From positions 1 through 33,234 of the forward strand of contig JAFRCV010000010.1 of the NCBI GenBank assembly GCA_017404205.1: a DNA stretch of 33,234 bases, written 5' to 3'. Within the stretch, counting starts at the first letter, position 1. The number at the start of each line of letters is the position of its first letter. The position numbers and the translations under genes were made by a program. The stretch comes from Erysipelotrichaceae bacterium (GTDB lineage Bacteria > Bacillota_I > Bacilli_A > Erysipelotrichales > Erysipelotrichaceae). A model generated the notes under the pieces. It did not search any database and had not been told where the DNA came from. It saw only the letters and a list, made by a program, of their open reading frames with translations. Positions 9,033 through 19,120 of the stretch are shown here, in pieces.

Positions 9033-9603
9033 AAGAATATTAATTACAATTGGACTAATATGTGCCTTATTGATACAAACTCCGATACTTGAAGTAAATG
9101 CTGAAGTACTTACAGCTCCTTTTAAAAGTGTTTTTGCAGTCGACATTGCATCTCCTTCAACTATTTTAAATGTTCCAAGAACGGCCATAAAAGACACAAA
9201 GACTTTGAATTATTTAGCGAAATTCTTAGACAATAAGATTAAAACAGTATCAAAGAATATTGAAAACAGTCTAGAGAATGGAAAAACTAATTTGACAAGT
9301 CTTAATTCTGCATGGGATATCGCTAATTTCTTAGTGGGGAAACCAGGCACTTGTTTCTATATCGCTTCTTTATTCGTTGAAATGTATCAAGGTAAGGAAC
9401 ATAAAATAGCCAATGCCTATGAAGTTAGTGAGCCAATGCTTGGTGATGTCATATATTATGCAGACGGTGGCTTAGGAATAGAACATTGGGCTATTTATCT
9501 AGGCGACAATTTAGCTTTACAAGGTAACTATTTAGGAACTACGATTATTGGTCCTGTATATATCAATAACGCAAGTGAACCGATATATTATCGCGTTCCA
9601 TAA
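9022..9603 (+). CDS. Exported NlpC/P60-like cysteine peptidase or amidase
   Basis: A 193-residue protein with an N-terminal signal peptide (K4-R5, hydrophobic core about 6-23, likely cleavage after A27). The C-terminal half resembles NlpC/P60 folds: C111 in KPGTCFYIASLF as nucleophile, then LGDVIYYADGG, then H155 in EHWAIYLGD and an ALQGN stretch. It likely cleaves or binds cell-wall peptide outside the membrane. The Cys motif lacks the usual DCSG, so it is a divergent member; a CHAP-like relative is an alternative. The ATG lies inside the last codons of ysxC, giving a lon-ysxC-peptidase operon. The ribosome binding site (GAAAAAGG) is weak and close. Confidence 0.75.
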   Translation: MVFKRILITIGLICALLIQTPILEVNAEVLTAPFKSVFAVDIASPSTILNVPRTAIKDTKTLNYLAKFLDNKIKTVSKNIENSLENGKTNLTSLNSAWDIANFLVGKPGTCFYIASLFVEMYQGKEHKIANAYEVSEPMLGDVIYYADGGLGIEHWAIYLGDNLALQGNYLGTTIIGPVYINNASEPIYYRVP

Positions 9604-9645
9604 TGAAAAAATTTACATTTTATTGAAAAAACATATCAAAATCAA

Positions 9646-9674
9646 TTGACTGTATTAAATTATAATGTTAGTAT
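9646..9674 (+). promoter_or_regulatory. Probable promoter of the liv operon leader
   Basis: TTGACT (9646-9651) is followed after 17 bases by TAGTAT (9669-9674). A better -10-like TATAAT lies at 9661-9666 but has no matching -35. Either choice puts transcription start at about 9673-9682, just before the putative leader peptide start at 9689. Confidence 0.55.
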
Positions 9675-9688
9675 TTTTTTATAGATTT

Positions 9689-9787
9689 ATGAAAAGACTA
9701 ACTGAACGATGTATAAAAAGCATCAATGAAATTATTGTCATTATTATTCGACTACAAGTCTTATGTGGCCTTGTTATTGTTGCGTAA
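9689..9787 (+). CDS. Putative Ile/Val/Leu-rich leader peptide of the liv operon
   Basis: A 32-codon ORF (ATG 9689, TAA 9785) lies between the likely liv promoter and an intrinsic terminator. Sixteen of its 32 residues are Ile, Val or Leu, clustered in the second half as IIVIIIRLQVLCGLVIVA, much like the control region of the enterobacterial ilv leader peptide. Its stop lies two bases before the 5' arm of a potential antiterminator, the position needed for ribosome-controlled attenuation. Against it: no Shine-Dalgarno sequence is visible and the 5' untranslated region would be very short. A second overlapping ORF (9726-9821, 31 residues, with a run of four Leu codons) is an alternative reading. 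The role is inference. Confidence 0.5.
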   Translation: MKRLTERCIKSINEIIVIIIRLQVLCGLVIVA

Positions 9788-9789
9788 TA

Positions 9790-9856
9790 TTGATAATGTT
9801 TCAGTTATGATTGTTATTTAGATGAGCTGAAGTTATCAATGCTCATCTTTTATTTT
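9790..9856 (+). promoter_or_regulatory. Transcription attenuator of the liv operon: antiterminator and terminator
   Basis: Terminator: 8-bp stem 9820-9827 with 9841-9848, extended inward by TGA/TCA, followed by TTTTATTTT (9848-9856). Competing antiterminator: 9790-9796 pairs with 9833-9839 (7 bp) and 9800-9804 pairs with 9827-9831 (5 bp, plus a possible G-T pair), about 12-13 pairs with a 2-base bulge. Forming the antiterminator traps the terminator's 5' arm in its loop, so the two exclude each other. No T-box motif (GGTGG...CCGCG) is present. The terminator is clear; the switching model is inference from the pairing and the upstream ORF. Confidence 0.7.
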
Positions 9857-9895
9857 GAGTATCTAGTTAGATATTTCATATAGAAGGGAAAGGTT

Positions 9896-11044
9896 ATGAA
9901 AAAATTATTAGCTATTTTATTTGCATTACTTCTTCTTGTTGCTTGTGGAAGCGATAAAGGAAGTGGCGATCCAACAACTATTAAAATTGGTGGATCTGGA
10001 CCATTAAGCGGTGGCGCTGCTGTTTATGGTAATGATGTCTATCATGCTGCTTTATTAGCTGTTGAAGAAATCAATGAACTTGAAGGAAAAGAATTCTTTG
10101 AATTACGTTTTGAAGATGATGAAGCTGATCCTGAAAAATCACCAAATGCTTATGGCGTATTAAAGGATTGGGGCATGCAAGTTTCAATTTATACAACAAC
10201 TTCAGGTGCAGGACTAGCTGTTGCTGAAGATTATTACAATGATCGTATATTTGCTTTAACTCCAAGTGGTTCAAATCCTGGCTTGGTTTATACAAACAAT
10301 ATGGTTTATGACAACTGTTTCCAAGTATGTTTTACTGACCCTAACCAAGGTGTAGCTTCTGCTGATTACATCAAACAAAATGAACTTGGTGATAAAGTCG
10401 CAATTATTTATCGTTCTGATGATGATTATTCAACGGCTATTTATCAAACATTTAAAGCTGAAGCTGAAAAGATTGGCTTAAATGTTGTGTATGAAGGATC
10501 ATTTATTAATACTGACAGTGATTATTCAACTCAATTAAATGCTTCAATGAATGCTGAAGCAGATGTTGTTTTCCTTCCTATTTATTATGGCCCAGCTGCT
10601 AGTATCTTAACACAAGCTGATGGTATGAATTATAAGCCAATCTTCTTTGGTGTTGATGGTATGGATGGCATCTTAACACAAGAAGGTTTCAATGTTGAAC
10701 TTGCTGAAGGCGTATATTTATTAACACCATTTGCTGCTGATAGTGATGATGAAAAGACAGTTAATTTTGTTAATGCATTTAAGGCAAAATTTGGTGGTAG
10801 TGTTCCTACTCAATTTGGTGCTGATGCTTATGATGCTGTCTATGCAATTTATCAAGCATGCAAAAATGCTGGTGTTGATGGAACGAATACTGCTGAAGAA
10901 ATTTGTGATGCTTTAATCAAGCAATTCACAACTATGTCTTTTGATGGATTGACAGGTGAGGCAACATGGAATTTAAAAGGTGAAGTTTCTAAATCACCTA
11001 AAGCTGTTATTATTGAAAACGGTGCATATACTGCTGCTGAATAA
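9896..11044 (+). CDS. livJ: Branched-chain amino acid ABC transporter substrate-binding lipoprotein
   Basis: A 382-residue extracellular type I periplasmic-binding-fold protein (Peripla_BP_6 family). The signal peptide ends in a lipobox VAC with C17 as the lipidated residue. The mature part begins IKIGGSGPLSGGAAVYG, the family's typical first strand and ligand-binding loop. It captures Leu/Ile/Val, or possibly other neutral amino acids or amides, and delivers them to LivHM. The start has GAAGGGAAAGG upstream. Expression is probably set by the attenuator immediately upstream, and a hairpin separates it from livH. Confidence 0.95.
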   Translation: MKKLLAILFALLLLVACGSDKGSGDPTTIKIGGSGPLSGGAAVYGNDVYHAALLAVEEINELEGKEFFELRFEDDEADPEKSPNAYGVLKDWGMQVSIYTTTSGAGLAVAEDYYNDRIFALTPSGSNPGLVYTNNMVYDNCFQVCFTDPNQGVASADYIKQNELGDKVAIIYRSDDDYSTAIYQTFKAEAEKIGLNVVYEGSFINTDSDYSTQLNASMNAEADVVFLPIYYGPAASILTQADGMNYKPIFFGVDGMDGILTQEGFNVELAEGVYLLTPFAADSDDEKTVNFVNAFKAKFGGSVPTQFGADAYDAVYAIYQACKNAGVDGTNTAEEICDALIKQFTTMSFDGLTGEATWNLKGEVSKSPKAVIIENGAYTAAE

Positions 11045-11052
11045 TAATGATT

Positions 11053-11088
11053 AAGTAGAGCTTATCTTTTGATAAGCTCTACTTGTTT
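11053..11088 (+). terminator. Strong hairpin between livJ and livH
   Basis: A perfect 14-bp stem (11053-11066 with 11071-11084) with a TTTT loop is followed by GTTTAA, a short T-run. It may be a partial terminator or a 3'-end stabiliser that lets the binding protein be made in excess over the membrane and ATPase subunits. Confidence 0.7.
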
Positions 11089-11103
11089 AAATGGAGAATT
11101 GTT

Positions 11104-11985
11104 ATGGTATTTTTATCTTATTTAATATCAGGAATTGGTTTGGGTTCTGTTTATGCAATTATTGCGTTAGGATACTCAATGGTTTATGGCATTGCGAAGA
11201 TGCTTAATTTTGCGCATGGCGATGTTATTATGGTTGGCGCTTATGTTGCTTTCTTTGCGTTAAATCGCTTTAATATGCCAGCTATTTTAGCTGTTTTTAT
11301 GTCAGTAGTTGTTTGTACATTGCTTGGTGTAATTATTGAAAAATTGGCTTATAAACCGCTTAGAAACGCATCTTCATTAGCTGTATTAATAACAGCTATT
11401 GGTGTTTCTTATTTCTTGCAAAACTTTGCTCAACTAATATGGACATCTTCTCCAAAATTCTTTACTTCGATTGTTGGTAATGAATCATTTAGTCTATTTG
11501 ATGGAAAACTGAATATTTCTTATATAAATGTTTTAACAATTGTTTCATGTATTGTCATCATGATTGTTTTGACCTTGTTTATAAATAACACAAAAACTGG
11601 TAGGGCAATGCGTGCTTGTTCAGAAGATAAAGATGCTGCTAGACTTATGGGAATCAATGTCAATAGAACAATTTCAATTACTTTCGCTATTGGCTCAGGA
11701 CTTGCAGCAATTGCTTCAGTATTGCTATGTTCAACATATCCATCTGTTTCGCCAACTTTAGGATCAATGCCTGGAATTAAAGCTTTCACAGCTGCTGTAT
11801 TTGGGGGCATTGGTTCAATTCCTGGTGCTTTTGTTGGTGGCTTACTATTAGGAATTATTGAGAATCTATCTAAAGCGTATATTTCTACGCAATTATCTGA
11901 TGCAATTGTCTTTGCTGTTTTGATTATTGTTTTACTTATCAAACCTGCTGGAATTTTAGGTAAGAAAGTTAATGAGAAAGTGTAG
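11104..11985 (+). CDS. livH: Branched-chain amino acid ABC transporter permease LivH
   Basis: A 293-residue polytopic membrane protein of the LivH/LivM family. It contains the family's GIGLGSVYAIIALGYSMVYG and NFAHGD motifs near the N-terminus and a C-terminal A-F-T-A-A-V-F-G-G-I-G-S-I-P-G-A loop that contacts the ATPase. ATG 11104 is preferred because GGAGAA lies five bases upstream; the frame also opens at a TTG at 11083 inside the preceding hairpin, which is unlikely. It forms the translocation pore with LivM. Confidence 0.95.
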   Translation: MVFLSYLISGIGLGSVYAIIALGYSMVYGIAKMLNFAHGDVIMVGAYVAFFALNRFNMPAILAVFMSVVVCTLLGVIIEKLAYKPLRNASSLAVLITAIGVSYFLQNFAQLIWTSSPKFFTSIVGNESFSLFDGKLNISYINVLTIVSCIVIMIVLTLFINNTKTGRAMRACSEDKDAARLMGINVNRTISITFAIGSGLAAIASVLLCSTYPSVSPTLGSMPGIKAFTAAVFGGIGSIPGAFVGGLLLGIIENLSKAYISTQLSDAIVFAVLIIVLLIKPAGILGKKVNEKV

Positions 11986-11992
11986 GTTTGTT

Positions 11993-13060
11993 ATGAAAAA
12001 GAATAATATTTTGAAAAATATTTTAAATAAAAAAAGCTATCTTGCATATGGCTTAGTAATTGTTATTTATCTAATATGTGAAATCTTATTAAAGACAGGG
12101 AATATTTCTTCTTTGTTTAAAAATTTACTTGTCCCATGTACTTGTTATATAGTTGCTGCCTTGGCGTTGAATCTTTGTGTTGGACTATCTGGCGAATTGT
12201 CATTAGGTCATGCTGGATTTATGTCAATTGGTGCTTATAGTGCTATTTGTTTATCAGGACTACTAGCTAGTGCTATTCCTAATGCAATTTTAAGGCTTAT
12301 TTTAGCGATAATATTTGGAACAATAATGAGTGCGATATTTGGTTTTTTGATTGGCATACCTGTCTTAAAACTTGAAGGAGACTATTTAGCGATTGTTACT
12401 TTAGCTTTTTGTCAAATAATAGCTTCAATTCTAAATAATATTTATTTAGGATTTGATGAAAAAGGAATTCAATTCTCTTTTATAGAAAATAAACTTAATT
12501 TAAGTGATAGTGGTAAAGTCCTTTTAGGCGGTCCAATAGGCGCTTCAGGTACTGAAAGAATTTCAACTTTTACTGTGGGAATTGTTTTGATACTGATAAC
12601 TTTATTTATTATTTTTAATTTAATGAATTCAAAATACGGCCGTGCAATTATGGCAGCAAGAGATAACAGAATTGCTGCAGCATCTGTTGGCATCAATGTC
12701 ACAAAAACAAAAATGTTAGCATTTGTCCTATCCGCTGGACTTGCAGGAGCAGCAGGCGCTTTATATGGTCTTAATTTTTCAACTTTAGCTCCCGCAAAAT
12801 TTAGTTTTAATCAATCAATATTAATACTTGTGTATGTTGTGCTCGGTGGCTTAGGCAATATTGTTGGAACAATCGTTTCAACAAGTGCATTATTTATTCT
12901 TCCTGAATTATTAAGATCATTTGAATCATATCGTATGATTATTTATTCATTGATTTTAATTGGTATTATGCTAATAACAAACAACAAATTAATTAAACAA
13001 AAGATAGAAGAATTTAAGAATAAGAAAAAAACTTCTAAGGAGGTAATAGACAATGAATAA
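11993..13060 (+). CDS. livM: Branched-chain amino acid ABC transporter permease LivM
   Basis: About 355 residues with roughly ten hydrophobic segments. It has the LivM motif NLCVGLSGELSLGHAGFMSIGAYS and a C-terminal VYVVLGGLGNIVGT loop, the ATPase contact region. An upstream in-frame ATG at 11972 overlaps the end of livH; I prefer ATG 11993, which has GTAGG seven bases before it, but either is possible. The C-terminal tail is Lys-rich and cytoplasmic and overlaps livG by eight bases, so the two are translationally coupled. Confidence 0.93.
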   Translation: MKKNNILKNILNKKSYLAYGLVIVIYLICEILLKTGNISSLFKNLLVPCTCYIVAALALNLCVGLSGELSLGHAGFMSIGAYSAICLSGLLASAIPNAILRLILAIIFGTIMSAIFGFLIGIPVLKLEGDYLAIVTLAFCQIIASILNNIYLGFDEKGIQFSFIENKLNLSDSGKVLLGGPIGASGTERISTFTVGIVLILITLFIIFNLMNSKYGRAIMAARDNRIAAASVGINVTKTKMLAFVLSAGLAGAAGALYGLNFSTLAPAKFSFNQSILILVYVVLGGLGNIVGTIVSTSALFILPELLRSFESYRMIIYSLILIGIMLITNNKLIKQKIEEFKNKKKTSKEVIDNE

Positions 13061-13823
13061 TATCCCTGTATTAGAAGTTAGAAATTTAGGAATTGATTTT
13101 GGTGGCTTAACAGCAGTTAATCGATTTAATATTGTCATTAATAAACATCAAATTGTTGGCTTAATTGGTCCTAACGGTGCTGGTAAAACAACAGTCTTCA
13201 ATATGTTAACAAAAGTATATGAGCCAAGTAGAGGAACAATTGAATTAAATGGTAAAGAAATAAATAAATTATCGACTGTTGAAGTTAATAAAGCCGGCAT
13301 TGCAAGAACATTCCAAAATATTCGTCTATTCGACAATTTATCCGTAATAGATAATGTTTTAATTGGCATGCATAATTCAATTGAATATTCAGTTGCTTCT
13401 GGAATTATCAAATCTATTGCTTTTCGTAAACAAGAAAAGCAAGCCTATGATAAAGCACTAGAATTATTGAATATATTTAAACTTCAAGATTATAAAGATC
13501 ATCTTGCAAGCTCACTTCCATATGGTGGTCAAAGAAGACTTGAAATTTGTCGTGCACTTGCAAGTAATCCTTTGCTACTTTTACTTGATGAACCTGCTGC
13601 AGGTATGAATCCAAGTGAGACTGCTGAACTTATGAATACAATAAAAGACATTCGTGATCATTTTGATATTGCAATCTTGTTGATTGAACACGATATGAAA
13701 TTTGTCATGGGAATTTGTGATGAGATAACTGTATTGAACTATGGCACGACATTAGCTCATGGAACTCCTGAAGAAATTCAAAACAATAAAGAAGTTATTA
13801 AAGCTTATTTGGGAGGTGAATAA
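13053..13823 (+). CDS. livG: Branched-chain amino acid ABC transporter ATPase LivG
   Basis: 256 residues with Walker A GPNGAGKTT, a variant ABC signature YGGQRRLEICRAL, Walker B LLLLLDEPAAGMN and the switch histidine in IEHDM. The AGMNPSE after Walker B is characteristic of LivG. A full AAGGAGG (13037-13043) sits inside the end of livM. It pairs with LivF to energise LivHM, and its stop overlaps the livF start (TAATG). Confidence 0.96.
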   Translation: MNNIPVLEVRNLGIDFGGLTAVNRFNIVINKHQIVGLIGPNGAGKTTVFNMLTKVYEPSRGTIELNGKEINKLSTVEVNKAGIARTFQNIRLFDNLSVIDNVLIGMHNSIEYSVASGIIKSIAFRKQEKQAYDKALELLNIFKLQDYKDHLASSLPYGGQRRLEICRALASNPLLLLLDEPAAGMNPSETAELMNTIKDIRDHFDIAILLIEHDMKFVMGICDEITVLNYGTTLAHGTPEEIQNNKEVIKAYLGGE

Positions 13824-14521
13824 TGCTAGAGATTAAAAATCTATCTGTAAGTTATGGCATGATTGAAGCCGTTAAAAATGTTAATATAACAATCAATGAT
13901 AATGAGATATGTTCATTGATAGGCGCAAATGGAGCAGGCAAGACAACTATCATGCATACAATATCTGGATTACTAAGTCCAACAAGTGGTGAAATTCTAT
14001 TAGATGGTGAAAATCTTTTAAAGATGAGTAGTGAAGAGATAGTTAAAAGAGGTATCATTCAAGTTCCAGAAGGTCGTCGTATCTTTCAAAAAATGAGTGT
14101 AAATGAAAATATTCTTTTGGGCGCTTATCAAAGAAAAAATATTGAAGATGAAGAATATGATTATATTTATTCTTTATTTCCAATTCTTAAAGAAAGATCA
14201 AAACAATTAGCTGGAACATTATCTGGTGGTGAACAACAGATGTTGGCAATGGCTAGAGCGCTTGTTGGAAAACCAAAAATAATGTTGTTAGATGAACCAA
14301 GTATGGGACTTGCACCATTACTTGTTAAGAATATTTTCGATATAATAAAGACGATAAATGAAAAGGGAACAACAATATTCTTAGTTGAACAAAACGCTAA
14401 TATGGCATTAGCTATCGCAAGTCACGCTTATGTTATGGAAACCGGAAAAATTGCTTTAGAAGGTACAGGCAAAGAATTAGCAGAAAGCGAAAAGGTACAA
14501 AAACTTTATTTAGGAGGTTAG
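13823..14521 (+). CDS. livF: Branched-chain amino acid ABC transporter ATPase LivF
   Basis: 232 residues with Walker A GANGAGKTT, signature LSGGEQQMLAMARAL, Walker B IMLLDEPSMGLAP and the switch histidine position replaced by Q in VEQNAN, which is normal for LivF. The PEGRRIFQKMSVNENILLGAY stretch is also LivF-typical. It is coupled by a one-base overlap to livG and followed after one base by the CBS-ACT gene, whose ribosome binding site lies in the end of livF. Confidence 0.96.
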   Translation: MLEIKNLSVSYGMIEAVKNVNITINDNEICSLIGANGAGKTTIMHTISGLLSPTSGEILLDGENLLKMSSEEIVKRGIIQVPEGRRIFQKMSVNENILLGAYQRKNIEDEEYDYIYSLFPILKERSKQLAGTLSGGEQQMLAMARALVGKPKIMLLDEPSMGLAPLLVKNIFDIIKTINEKGTTIFLVEQNANMALAIASHAYVMETGKIALEGTGKELAESEKVQKLYLGG

Positions 14522-14522
14522 T

Positions 14523-15161
14523 ATGTTTGTTAAAGATGTAATGACAAAAAATCCAATCACAATCACACCTGATGATGTAGTATCAAATGCTGTAGATATA
14601 TTTCAAAATAATAATTTTCATCGTCTACCTGTTGTCGATAAATCAAATCATGTAGTTGGTTTAATTACTGAAAGAATAGTTGCTGAAAATGTTCCAAGTA
14701 AGGCGACTTCTCTTTCAATTCATGAAATTAATTATTTATTAAATAAAACTACTATTGGCGACATTATGCTTAAAGATATTAAATCAATTGGTCCTAATGC
14801 ATTGCTTGAAGAAGCTGCTGCATTAATGATGGAAACTAGAGTATTTACACTACCAGTTGTTGACCAAGGATTTTTAATTGGCGTTATAACCCAAAAAGAT
14901 ATCTTTAATGCTTTTATTGAAGTTCAAGGCTACTACAATAAAGGCACAAGAGTTGTTGTGACAATTGAAAATGACCAACCAGGTATTTTAAGAGATATTG
15001 CAACAATCTTTGCAAACAATAATATTTCGATTACGCATTTAGTGGTTGAAAGAAATGAGGCAATCAATATTGTTATTCGTGTTGATGAAATTGATAGTGA
15101 TAAAGTAAAAGATTTACTTTCTGATAGATATCAAATTATCGATATTAAGTCTTATAAGTAA
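14523..15161 (+). CDS. CBS-CBS-ACT domain protein (AcuB-like), likely ligand sensor of the liv operon
   Basis: A 212-residue soluble protein. Two CBS motifs form a Bateman module (about 1-56, VKDVMTKNPITITPDD, and about 75-130, IGDIMLKDIKSIGPNA). An ACT domain follows (about 140-212, VVVTIENDQPGILRDIATIF). CBS pairs commonly bind adenosyl nucleotides and ACT domains bind amino acids. Being the last gene of livJHMGF with one base of spacing, it may sense energy state and an amino acid to regulate transport or metabolism; that is inference. AGGAGG (about 14513-14518) sets the start. AcuB of Bacillus shares this domain order, but a link to acetoin use is not supported here. Confidence 0.88.
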   Translation: MFVKDVMTKNPITITPDDVVSNAVDIFQNNNFHRLPVVDKSNHVVGLITERIVAENVPSKATSLSIHEINYLLNKTTIGDIMLKDIKSIGPNALLEEAAALMMETRVFTLPVVDQGFLIGVITQKDIFNAFIEVQGYYNKGTRVVVTIENDQPGILRDIATIFANNNISITHLVVERNEAINIVIRVDEIDSDKVKDLLSDRYQIIDIKSYK

Positions 15162-15191: not shown

Positions 15192-15197
15192 TAAAAA

Positions 15198-15400
15198 GGT
15201 TAAGAAAAGAAGGAAGTAATTATTGCTGGTAATAAGAGATATTCTGTTTGCTGAAAAGGATACAAGGCAATAATGAAAAGTAGTCTTGGAGCCTATATAT
15301 TGAAATAGTAGTAAATATATACGTTTACTCGCGTTAAGAGTTTAAGTAAAAAATAAGGTGGTACCGCGCGTTTGCGCCCTTTTACCACCTTTTATTTATT
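15198..15400 (+). ncRNA. T-box leader of valS, Val specifier
   Basis: The conserved T-box sequence AAGGTGGTACCGCG is at 15355-15368. Stem I can be folded from TTAAGA (15200-15205) with TCTT (15284-15287) at the base and TTATTGC with GCAATAA (about 15220-15273) above. This leaves a specifier loop containing GTA (15280-15282), a Val codon; the next three bases, GTC, also read Val. The terminator uses AAGGTGGTA (15355-15363) with TACCACCTT (15383-15391), enclosing a GCGC/GCGC inner stem and followed by TTTATTTATTTT. Uncharged tRNA-Val would favour the antiterminator and raise valS expression. Confidence 0.93.
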
Positions 15401-18105: not shown

Positions 18106-18405
18106 ATGCCAGTTGCTAAAAAAACTGCTCCTGCTAAAAAAGCAGTAGCTAAAAAAGCTCCAGCTAAGAAAGCTGCTCCTGCTAAAAAGCCAGTAGCTAA
18201 GAAAGCTCCAGCTAAGAAAGCTGCTCCTGCTAAAAAAGCAGTAGCTAAGAAAGCTCCAGCTAAAAAAGCTGCTCCTGCTAAAAAAGCAGTAGTTAAGAAA
18301 GCTGCTCCAGCTAAAAAGCCTGTTGCTAAAAAAGCTGCTCCTGCTAAAAAAGCAGTAGCTAAAAAGCCAGTTGCTAAAAAAGCTCCAGCTAAAAAAGCTA
18401 AATAA
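18106..18405 (+). CDS. Alanine/lysine/proline-rich histone H1-like protein
   Basis: A 99-residue protein made almost only of 5-6 residue units ending in KK ([21 protein letters not shown]): 18 such units, 37 lysines, no acidic residue. This composition matches eukaryotic histone H1 tails and bacterial PAKKA-type proteins, which bind DNA non-specifically. It is expected to be unstructured, extremely basic and associated with the nucleoid or RNA. The units are near-identical at DNA level, so unit number may vary between strains. AAAGGGAAAAG precedes ATG. It has its own strong promoter and terminator, so it is a single-gene unit between valS and mscL. A surface or secretion role is unlikely, as no signal peptide is present. 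Confidence 0.8.
18116..18402 (+). repeat. Tandem 15-18 bp coding repeats (AKK units)
   Basis: Degenerate tandem copies of a unit like CCAGCTAAGAAAGCT, many containing A6 runs, fill the gene. Slippage or recombination would change the protein by whole units if in multiples of the unit, or frameshift it at the A6 runs. Confidence 0.8.
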
Positions 18406-18931: not shown

Positions 18932-18937
18932 TTAAGT

Positions 18938-19120
18938 ATATCGATGAATGAGACATGATTATATTGTCAATGTTAAAGAGAGGTTGTGGATGGTGCAAAC
19001 AACTACTAAACAATATGATTACTACTCAGGAGATCTTCTAATAAAAGACGTTACTCGCGTTAAGAGTTCAAGTTAGAAATTAAGGTGGTACCGCGCATTG
19101 CGCCCTTTTACCACCTTTTA
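18938..19120 (+). ncRNA. T-box leader of thrS, Thr specifier
   Basis: The T-box motif AAGGTGGTACCGCG is at 19082-19095. In Stem I, ATATTGT pairs with ACAATAT and TGAG with CTCA, leaving ACT (19021-19023), a Thr codon, in the specifier loop in the same position as GTA in the valS leader. The terminator pairs 19082-19090 with 19109-19117 and ends in TTTTATTTTT. The 3' half closely resembles that of the valS leader, including TTACTCGCGTTAAGAGTT. Uncharged tRNA-Thr should allow read-through into thrS and possibly the two genes behind it. Confidence 0.93.

Follow-up and report, generated by a model that had tools for sequence, protein, structure and literature searches.

A conserved candidate leader-peptide attenuator upstream of a branched-chain amino acid importer operon in Erysipelotrichaceae

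What controls the livJHMGF operon of an Erysipelotrichaceae bacterium, and is its sensor a short ORF, crowded with isoleucine, valine and leucine codons, that lies just upstream? Leader-peptide attenuation is a classical mechanism, and the control of amino acid genes in Bacillota has mostly been described through T-boxes and CodY. The DNA analyzed here (“the window”; 33,234 nt) forms contig 6 in a genome assembly of 1.62 Mb; its closest relatives with a name are MAGs labelled Solobacterium and Erysipelotrichaceae. The operon (9896–14521) is assigned to a branched-chain amino acid ABC importer from its best NCBIfam matches, which are to a livJ-type SBP, LivH, LivM, LivG and LivF, all below the curated cut-offs. 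A sequence-only reading of the window had proposed that a ribosome translating the short ORF governs transcription of these genes. Here, we compare the locus with its relatives, consider what else could explain it, and discuss its relation to known systems.

The gap between the upstream gene (end, 9603) and livJ (start, 9896) is 294 bases long and contains, in 5′ to 3′ order, a promoter-like pair, the ORF, an antiterminator, a terminator, and the livJ Shine-Dalgarno sequence. These features and the importer genes are on the + strand. The promoter-like elements claimed earlier are present, i.e., TTGACT (9646–9651) and, after 17 nt, TAGTAT (9669–9674), the latter preceded by TG. Promoter-like sites are no more frequent in the window than in shuffled sequence; TTGACT and an identical TGTTAGTAT also occur in L002, the nearest relative. 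We regard 9646–9674 as a probable promoter, from which transcription would start at ~9681. The ORF, re-read from the sequence, runs from ATG at 9689 to TAA at 9785–9787 and has the reported 32 codons, 16 of them for Ile, Val or Leu (peptide MKRLTERCIKSINEIIVIIIRLQVLCGLVIVA*). An ATG-initiated ORF of 25–45 aa with at least 16 such codons arises in 47 of 3000 dinucleotide shuffles (1.6%). On its own, the window ORF is modest evidence and could be due to chance; judged from the sequences, it is conservation in relatives that makes the leader ORF convincing.

We gathered livJ relatives from 100 related genomes plus related contigs, and added further upstream stretches. A further 28 genomes of the genus have a homologous ORF, and in all 29 the frame is open, with neither a stop codon nor a frameshift inside. 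The leaders are 32–41 codons long, 11–19 of which specify Ile, Leu or Val, and the differences in length remain in frame. Codons for these three amino acids make up 43% of the leaders, as compared with 24% of the window genes. In every genome, the leader stop codon lies 0–9 nt 5′ of the first arm of the antiterminator (region 2; see below). A proposed check, whether relatives keep both the Ile/Val/Leu codons and the position of the stop, therefore came out in favor of the earlier reading. The codons that would serve as control codons fall in two places. Codons 15–20 of the window (Ile Ile Val Ile Ile Ile; 9731–9748) align, across the 29 peptides, with columns that are 69–100% Ile/Leu/Val, except for an Asp column that is conserved in the relatives. 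Codons 28–31 (Leu Val Ile Val; 9770–9781) include three columns that are 100% Ile/Leu/Val where aligned; most relatives have Ile-Ile-Ile (ATTATTATT) at this site. The shared pattern of the aligned peptides is x-V-I-I-D-I-L-V-L-R-x-L-R-G-I-I-I-M, with several columns that are 100% Ile/Leu/Val. In frame, the leaders have a pN/pS of ~0.40, with second codon positions the least changed, although the weight of this ratio is reduced because the ORF overlaps RNA stems.

Three RNA helices, each named for the two regions that pair, accompany the ORF. The intrinsic terminator (3:4; 9820–9857) was found where it had been placed, immediately before livJ: its stem (9820–9827/9841–9848) is followed by TTTTATTTT, a T-rich tail. 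A simple terminator scan does not report it because such a scan allows loops of only 3–8 nt and the loop here is 13 nt. In the antiterminator (2:3), region 2 (9788–9806) pairs through 9788–9797 and 9800–9806 with region 3 (9825–9841), giving 17 pairs and −15.5 kcal/mol; only 0.7% of region 2 shuffles pair equally well. Region 3 overlaps the terminator in its 5′ arm (9825–9827), its loop, and the first base of its 3′ arm. The sequence-only reading had described a slightly shorter pairing (9790–9804 with 9827–9839), separated from the stop codon by two bases. The pairing stands and the stop does adjoin it, but there is no gap, since the TAA ends at 9787 and region 2 starts at 9788. Similarly, a protector stem (1:2) exists, but not where it had been drawn: the homologous site pairs region 1 (9734–9742) with 9789–9797, while the pairing suggested earlier, 9739–9746 with 9791–9798, is also complementary on paper in the window.

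The relatives retain these helices through sequence change. In alignment A1, helix 1:2 is paired in 86.6% of cells, with a covariation score of 0.247 (0.173 when shuffled, ≤0.139 in slid registers), and helix 2:3 is paired in 83.1% of cells, with a score of 0.281. Helix 3:4 is paired in 97.8% of cells (score 0.180), and five of its eight pairs have changed on both sides. For all three helices, the score is higher than in any of 500 shuffles or any slid register, as the earlier reading required, with the proviso that the counts are drawn from related sequences, which can beat shuffles without any structure, a concern that the slid controls partly address. A test that needs no alignment gives a similar picture: cognate duplexes of regions 2 and 3 have a mean energy of −17.4 kcal/mol, versus −13.6 kcal/mol when arms are swapped between species. 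The cognate arm is unmatched by any foreign arm in L003, L009, L028, L096, L098 and L103, and L096 and L098 have divergent arm sequences with pairing retained. These comparisons indicate that the RNA switch is under selection.

Within the loop of 1:2, and overlapping conserved codons, lies an inner hairpin (CTACA-N7-TGTGG; 9752–9768), which we add to the elements listed before. It is 88% paired, and four of its five pairs have changed on both sides, with most relatives having CTACG-N7-CGTGG where the window has CTACA/TGTGG. Its covariation, too, is higher than in the shuffled and slid controls. This hairpin may account for the retained codons Leu-Arg ... Leu-Arg-Gly and for the rare CTA codon. 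Separately, most relatives have a second small hairpin, TAG(A/T)(A/T)ACAG-loop-CTGT..CTA, between the terminator and the livJ Shine-Dalgarno sequence. Its stems have changed across relatives yet remain complementary; the window has a reduced form at 9860–9873 (TATCTAGTTAGATA), and the hairpin is missing in L016, L020, L096 and L098.

This layout suggests a model in which RNA polymerase would start near 9681 and a ribosome would translate the leader. If charged tRNA for Ile, Leu or Val ran short, the ribosome would stall at the clustered codons and block the 1:2 stem, leaving region 2 free to pair with region 3 once the latter is made. Formation of 2:3 would make the terminator impossible, and livJHMGF would be transcribed. 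When amino acids are plentiful, the ribosome would reach the stop codon, against region 2, and would cover much of that region; region 3 would then pair with region 4, and transcription would end before livJ. Translation of the leader, stalling, and the response to starvation are steps that we infer. With such a device, the importer would probably be switched on only when ribosomes are short of Ile, Leu or Val.

Folding predictions bear on several of these steps. The minimum-free-energy fold, which had been proposed as a check, gives a 1:2-type structure plus the terminator (z −2.1). To represent the ribosome, RNA was masked to 15 bases beyond the first base of the P-site codon, a rule-of-thumb footprint; to represent the co-transcriptional setting, RNA was folded up to region 3 only, with region 4 not yet made. 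The mean predicted probability of 2:3 is 0.81 with the ribosome stalled at Ile/Leu/Val codons versus 0.38 with the ribosome at the stop codon, and the stalled value is the higher one in 29/29 sequences. For the window, the probabilities are 0.02 (naked RNA), 0.81 (stalled) and 0.39 (at the stop). Across the family, naked RNA has a mean 2:3 probability of 0.47, and roughly half of the sequences are still predicted to form 2:3, meaning that basal termination by 1:2 is not uniform. In these predictions, 1:2 plainly acts as a protector in the window, but not throughout the family. We also tried, and set aside, folding of the full-length RNA to equilibrium under the ribosome mask. Even when the ribosome is stalled, most sequences still favor the terminator, such that the states are not separated as they are by folding to region 3; hence, the decision of the switch must be kinetic.

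The window's own leader raises a further question. The absence of a Shine-Dalgarno sequence before the ORF had been noted as a caveat. For the family, this concern largely falls away, as 27 of the 29 genomes have such a sequence before the leader ATG; it stands for the window copy, which lacks one, as does L103. In the window, the ATG is preceded by ATAGATTT, where L002 has AAGGATGATAA. The 5′ leader would indeed be as short as had been claimed, with the ATG ~8 nt past the predicted start site. The L103 ATG lies ~6 bases past its −10 element, and this closeness to the predicted start site suggests leaderless or near-leaderless initiation. Either translation of the window and L103 leaders starts on a nearly leaderless mRNA, or the window copy is poorly translated. 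In the latter case, the family could consist of attenuators while the window copy is decaying, its leader barely translated without a Shine-Dalgarno sequence and the element largely reduced to a fixed terminator or constant-level device. We consider such decay unlikely. The comparison of ATAGATTT-ATG with AAGGATGATAA-ATG in L002 points toward it, as does the very low 2:3 probability of naked window RNA, but the window retains the ORF, its codons, the position of its stop, and a 17-bp antiterminator, and the similar placement of the L103 ATG suggests leaderless initiation instead. Continued use of the window leader is favored because the codons and the antiterminator are intact.

It is also conceivable, but very improbable, that the RNA switch is real and has a different sensor, i.e., a riboswitch or a leader-binding protein, with the ORF being incidental. 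The RNA-level conservation of the inner hairpin and of parts of the leader fits this explanation, as do the two ORFs (of 29, and including that of the window) without a Shine-Dalgarno sequence. An incidental ORF is at odds with an open frame in all 29 genomes, in-frame changes in length, a pN/pS of 0.4, a Shine-Dalgarno sequence in 27 genomes, and a stop codon at region 2. Moreover, no Rfam family matches 9600–9900, and the T-box model (RF00230) has no match there even at an E-value of 5. Hardly credible is the notion that the ORF product is a small, hydrophobic membrane protein with a function of its own, its ORF separated from livJ by a plain terminator: hydrophobicity and a conserved C-terminal half fit such a peptide, but the N-terminal half, the length and the last residues (the final 3–6 most of all) vary, only the Ile/Leu/Val columns persist, and the conserved 1:2 and 2:3 pairings and the fixed stop position would be left unexplained.

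By far the most probable explanation remains that a ribosome-mediated transcription attenuator controls the livJHMGF importer, as had been proposed. At the level of sequence, the family shows the layout expected of such an attenuator: a conserved ORF with clustered codons, a stop codon held in position beside an antiterminator, an intrinsic terminator, and a 1:2 stem, with 1:2, 2:3 and 3:4 all covarying.

Searched with a covariance model built from the 29 leaders, the 36 genomes of the genus yield the element in 29 cases, with one full-length copy in each and always at livJ; four extra matches in the genus are partial (E = 0.03–0.1). When 395 genomes from the class were searched with the model, under stricter filters than the genus, the window was recovered along with just two weak matches (L140 and L141). 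We took these two for chance matches because they lie away from branched-chain genes; the surroundings are purine-permease/PyrR-like in one case, and an ABC-type binding protein followed by an opposite-strand dehydratase-like gene in the other. No comparable leader was found in the 400 bases checked at livJ relatives of Lachnospiraceae and other Clostridia. Thus, the element looks confined to the genus, bearing in mind the stricter filters used for the larger class set. Four genomes of the genus (G008, G016, G018 and G025) have livJ without the element, and near the window in the LivJ tree, carriers (L006) and non-carriers (L004 and L005) are intermixed. Given this mixture and the weakness of the deepest forks, the order of gains and losses cannot be read from the tree.

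KARI (ilvC; PF01450) was found in none of the 36 genus genomes, whereas all 14 control genomes were positive, making de novo synthesis of valine, leucine and isoleucine by the usual route unlikely. CodY above the Pfam cut-off was likewise found in 0/36 genomes, with control genomes positive, and BrnQ was not found in the window genome. Many of the 36 genomes are incomplete, but absence across all 36 is still informative. Without KARI, CodY or, in the window genome, BrnQ, the lineage seems to rely on import for its branched-chain amino acids. Directly after livF is a further + strand gene (14523–15161) with weak CBS matches; its product has two CBS-type stretches and, by eye, an ACT-like C-terminus. 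This product may sense a ligand and serve as a regulator linked to the importer.

The view that such attenuators are hardly used in Bacillota is outdated, since two have experimental support: Rli60 of Listeria monocytogenes, which controls ilv-leu (PMC5864092), and the leucine-rich attenuator peptide of Staphylococcus aureus ilvD (PMC5794164). Rli60 resembles the window family in having an Ile/Leu/Val leader peptide and an antiterminator opposed to an intrinsic terminator, but it serves biosynthesis, with a 13-aa peptide and under CodY, whereas the window family serves an importer, with leaders of 32–41 aa and no CodY found (PMC5864092). Similarly, the S. aureus system is one of leader-peptide transcription attenuation by branched-chain supply, but it has mainly Leu codons and a biosynthetic operon, with CodY above it (PMC5794164). 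Branched-chain biosynthesis leader-peptide attenuators have been predicted in Lactococcus and Streptococcus (PMC6123439), and histidine leaders in Bacilli (PMC2965389). Within the same order, candidate histidine-leader attenuators have been predicted by comparison on the his operons of six Erysipelotrichales species; the kind of device is the same, but the codons are His, the operons biosynthetic, and the genera different (PMC9413887). The Escherichia coli ilvGMEDA and ilvBN leaders, like that of the window, are 32 aa long and rich in Ile/Val/Leu (15 and 11 residues, respectively), and follow the 1:2, 2:3, 3:4 logic. They are, however, from Proteobacteria and on biosynthetic operons, and the likeness drawn here is one of layout (reviewed in PMC6123439). 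The Corynebacterium ilvB-II uORF shares Ile/Leu/Val codons, a terminator and an antiterminator, but belongs to Actinobacteria and to ilvBNC biosynthesis (PMC10272879, PMC11109978). The Streptomyces livJ motif lies, like the window element, 5′ of genes for LIVBP-type proteins, but is a riboswitch candidate with predicted Shine-Dalgarno sequestration and no leader peptide described (PMC11109978).

We found no published leader-peptide attenuator on a LIV importer, in a literature search that covered few subscription journals; this narrow coverage makes the absence weak evidence of novelty. Target, lineage and family appear to be new, while the kind of device is known. The placement, on an importer in a lineage apparently unable to make Ile, Leu or Val, appears to be undescribed. 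A more ambitious proposal is that the attenuator is the main or only branched-chain sensor of the importer, in a lineage that has lost both branched-chain biosynthesis and CodY, that it is the first of its kind described on a LIV importer, and that in some members, the window included, the mRNA carrying the leader ORF is nearly leaderless; we hold this tentatively, at somewhat less than even confidence. What the comparison adds to the Bacillota is a compact, strongly supported attenuator family, placed on uptake and not on synthesis. Such an attenuator would match import to demand in a lineage that is apparently auxotrophic and has no detectable CodY.

The window genome has twelve T-boxes. Two of these are in the window, on valS and thrS, where they had been reported: the former (15193–15384) scores above the Rfam gathering threshold, and the latter (18935–19110), at 89.7 bits, falls just short of that threshold (93) and is therefore missed by Rfam scans at default settings. 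Apparently, the same bacterium reads charged tRNA by T-boxes at some genes and by ribosome stalling at livJ. T-boxes on aminoacyl-tRNA synthetases in the same genome thus offer a natural comparison of two charged-tRNA readouts. Elsewhere in the window, 18106–18405 encodes a 99-residue protein of Ala/Lys/Pro repeats (KKAPAKKA...), which resembles a histone H1-like or HU-tail DNA-binding protein.
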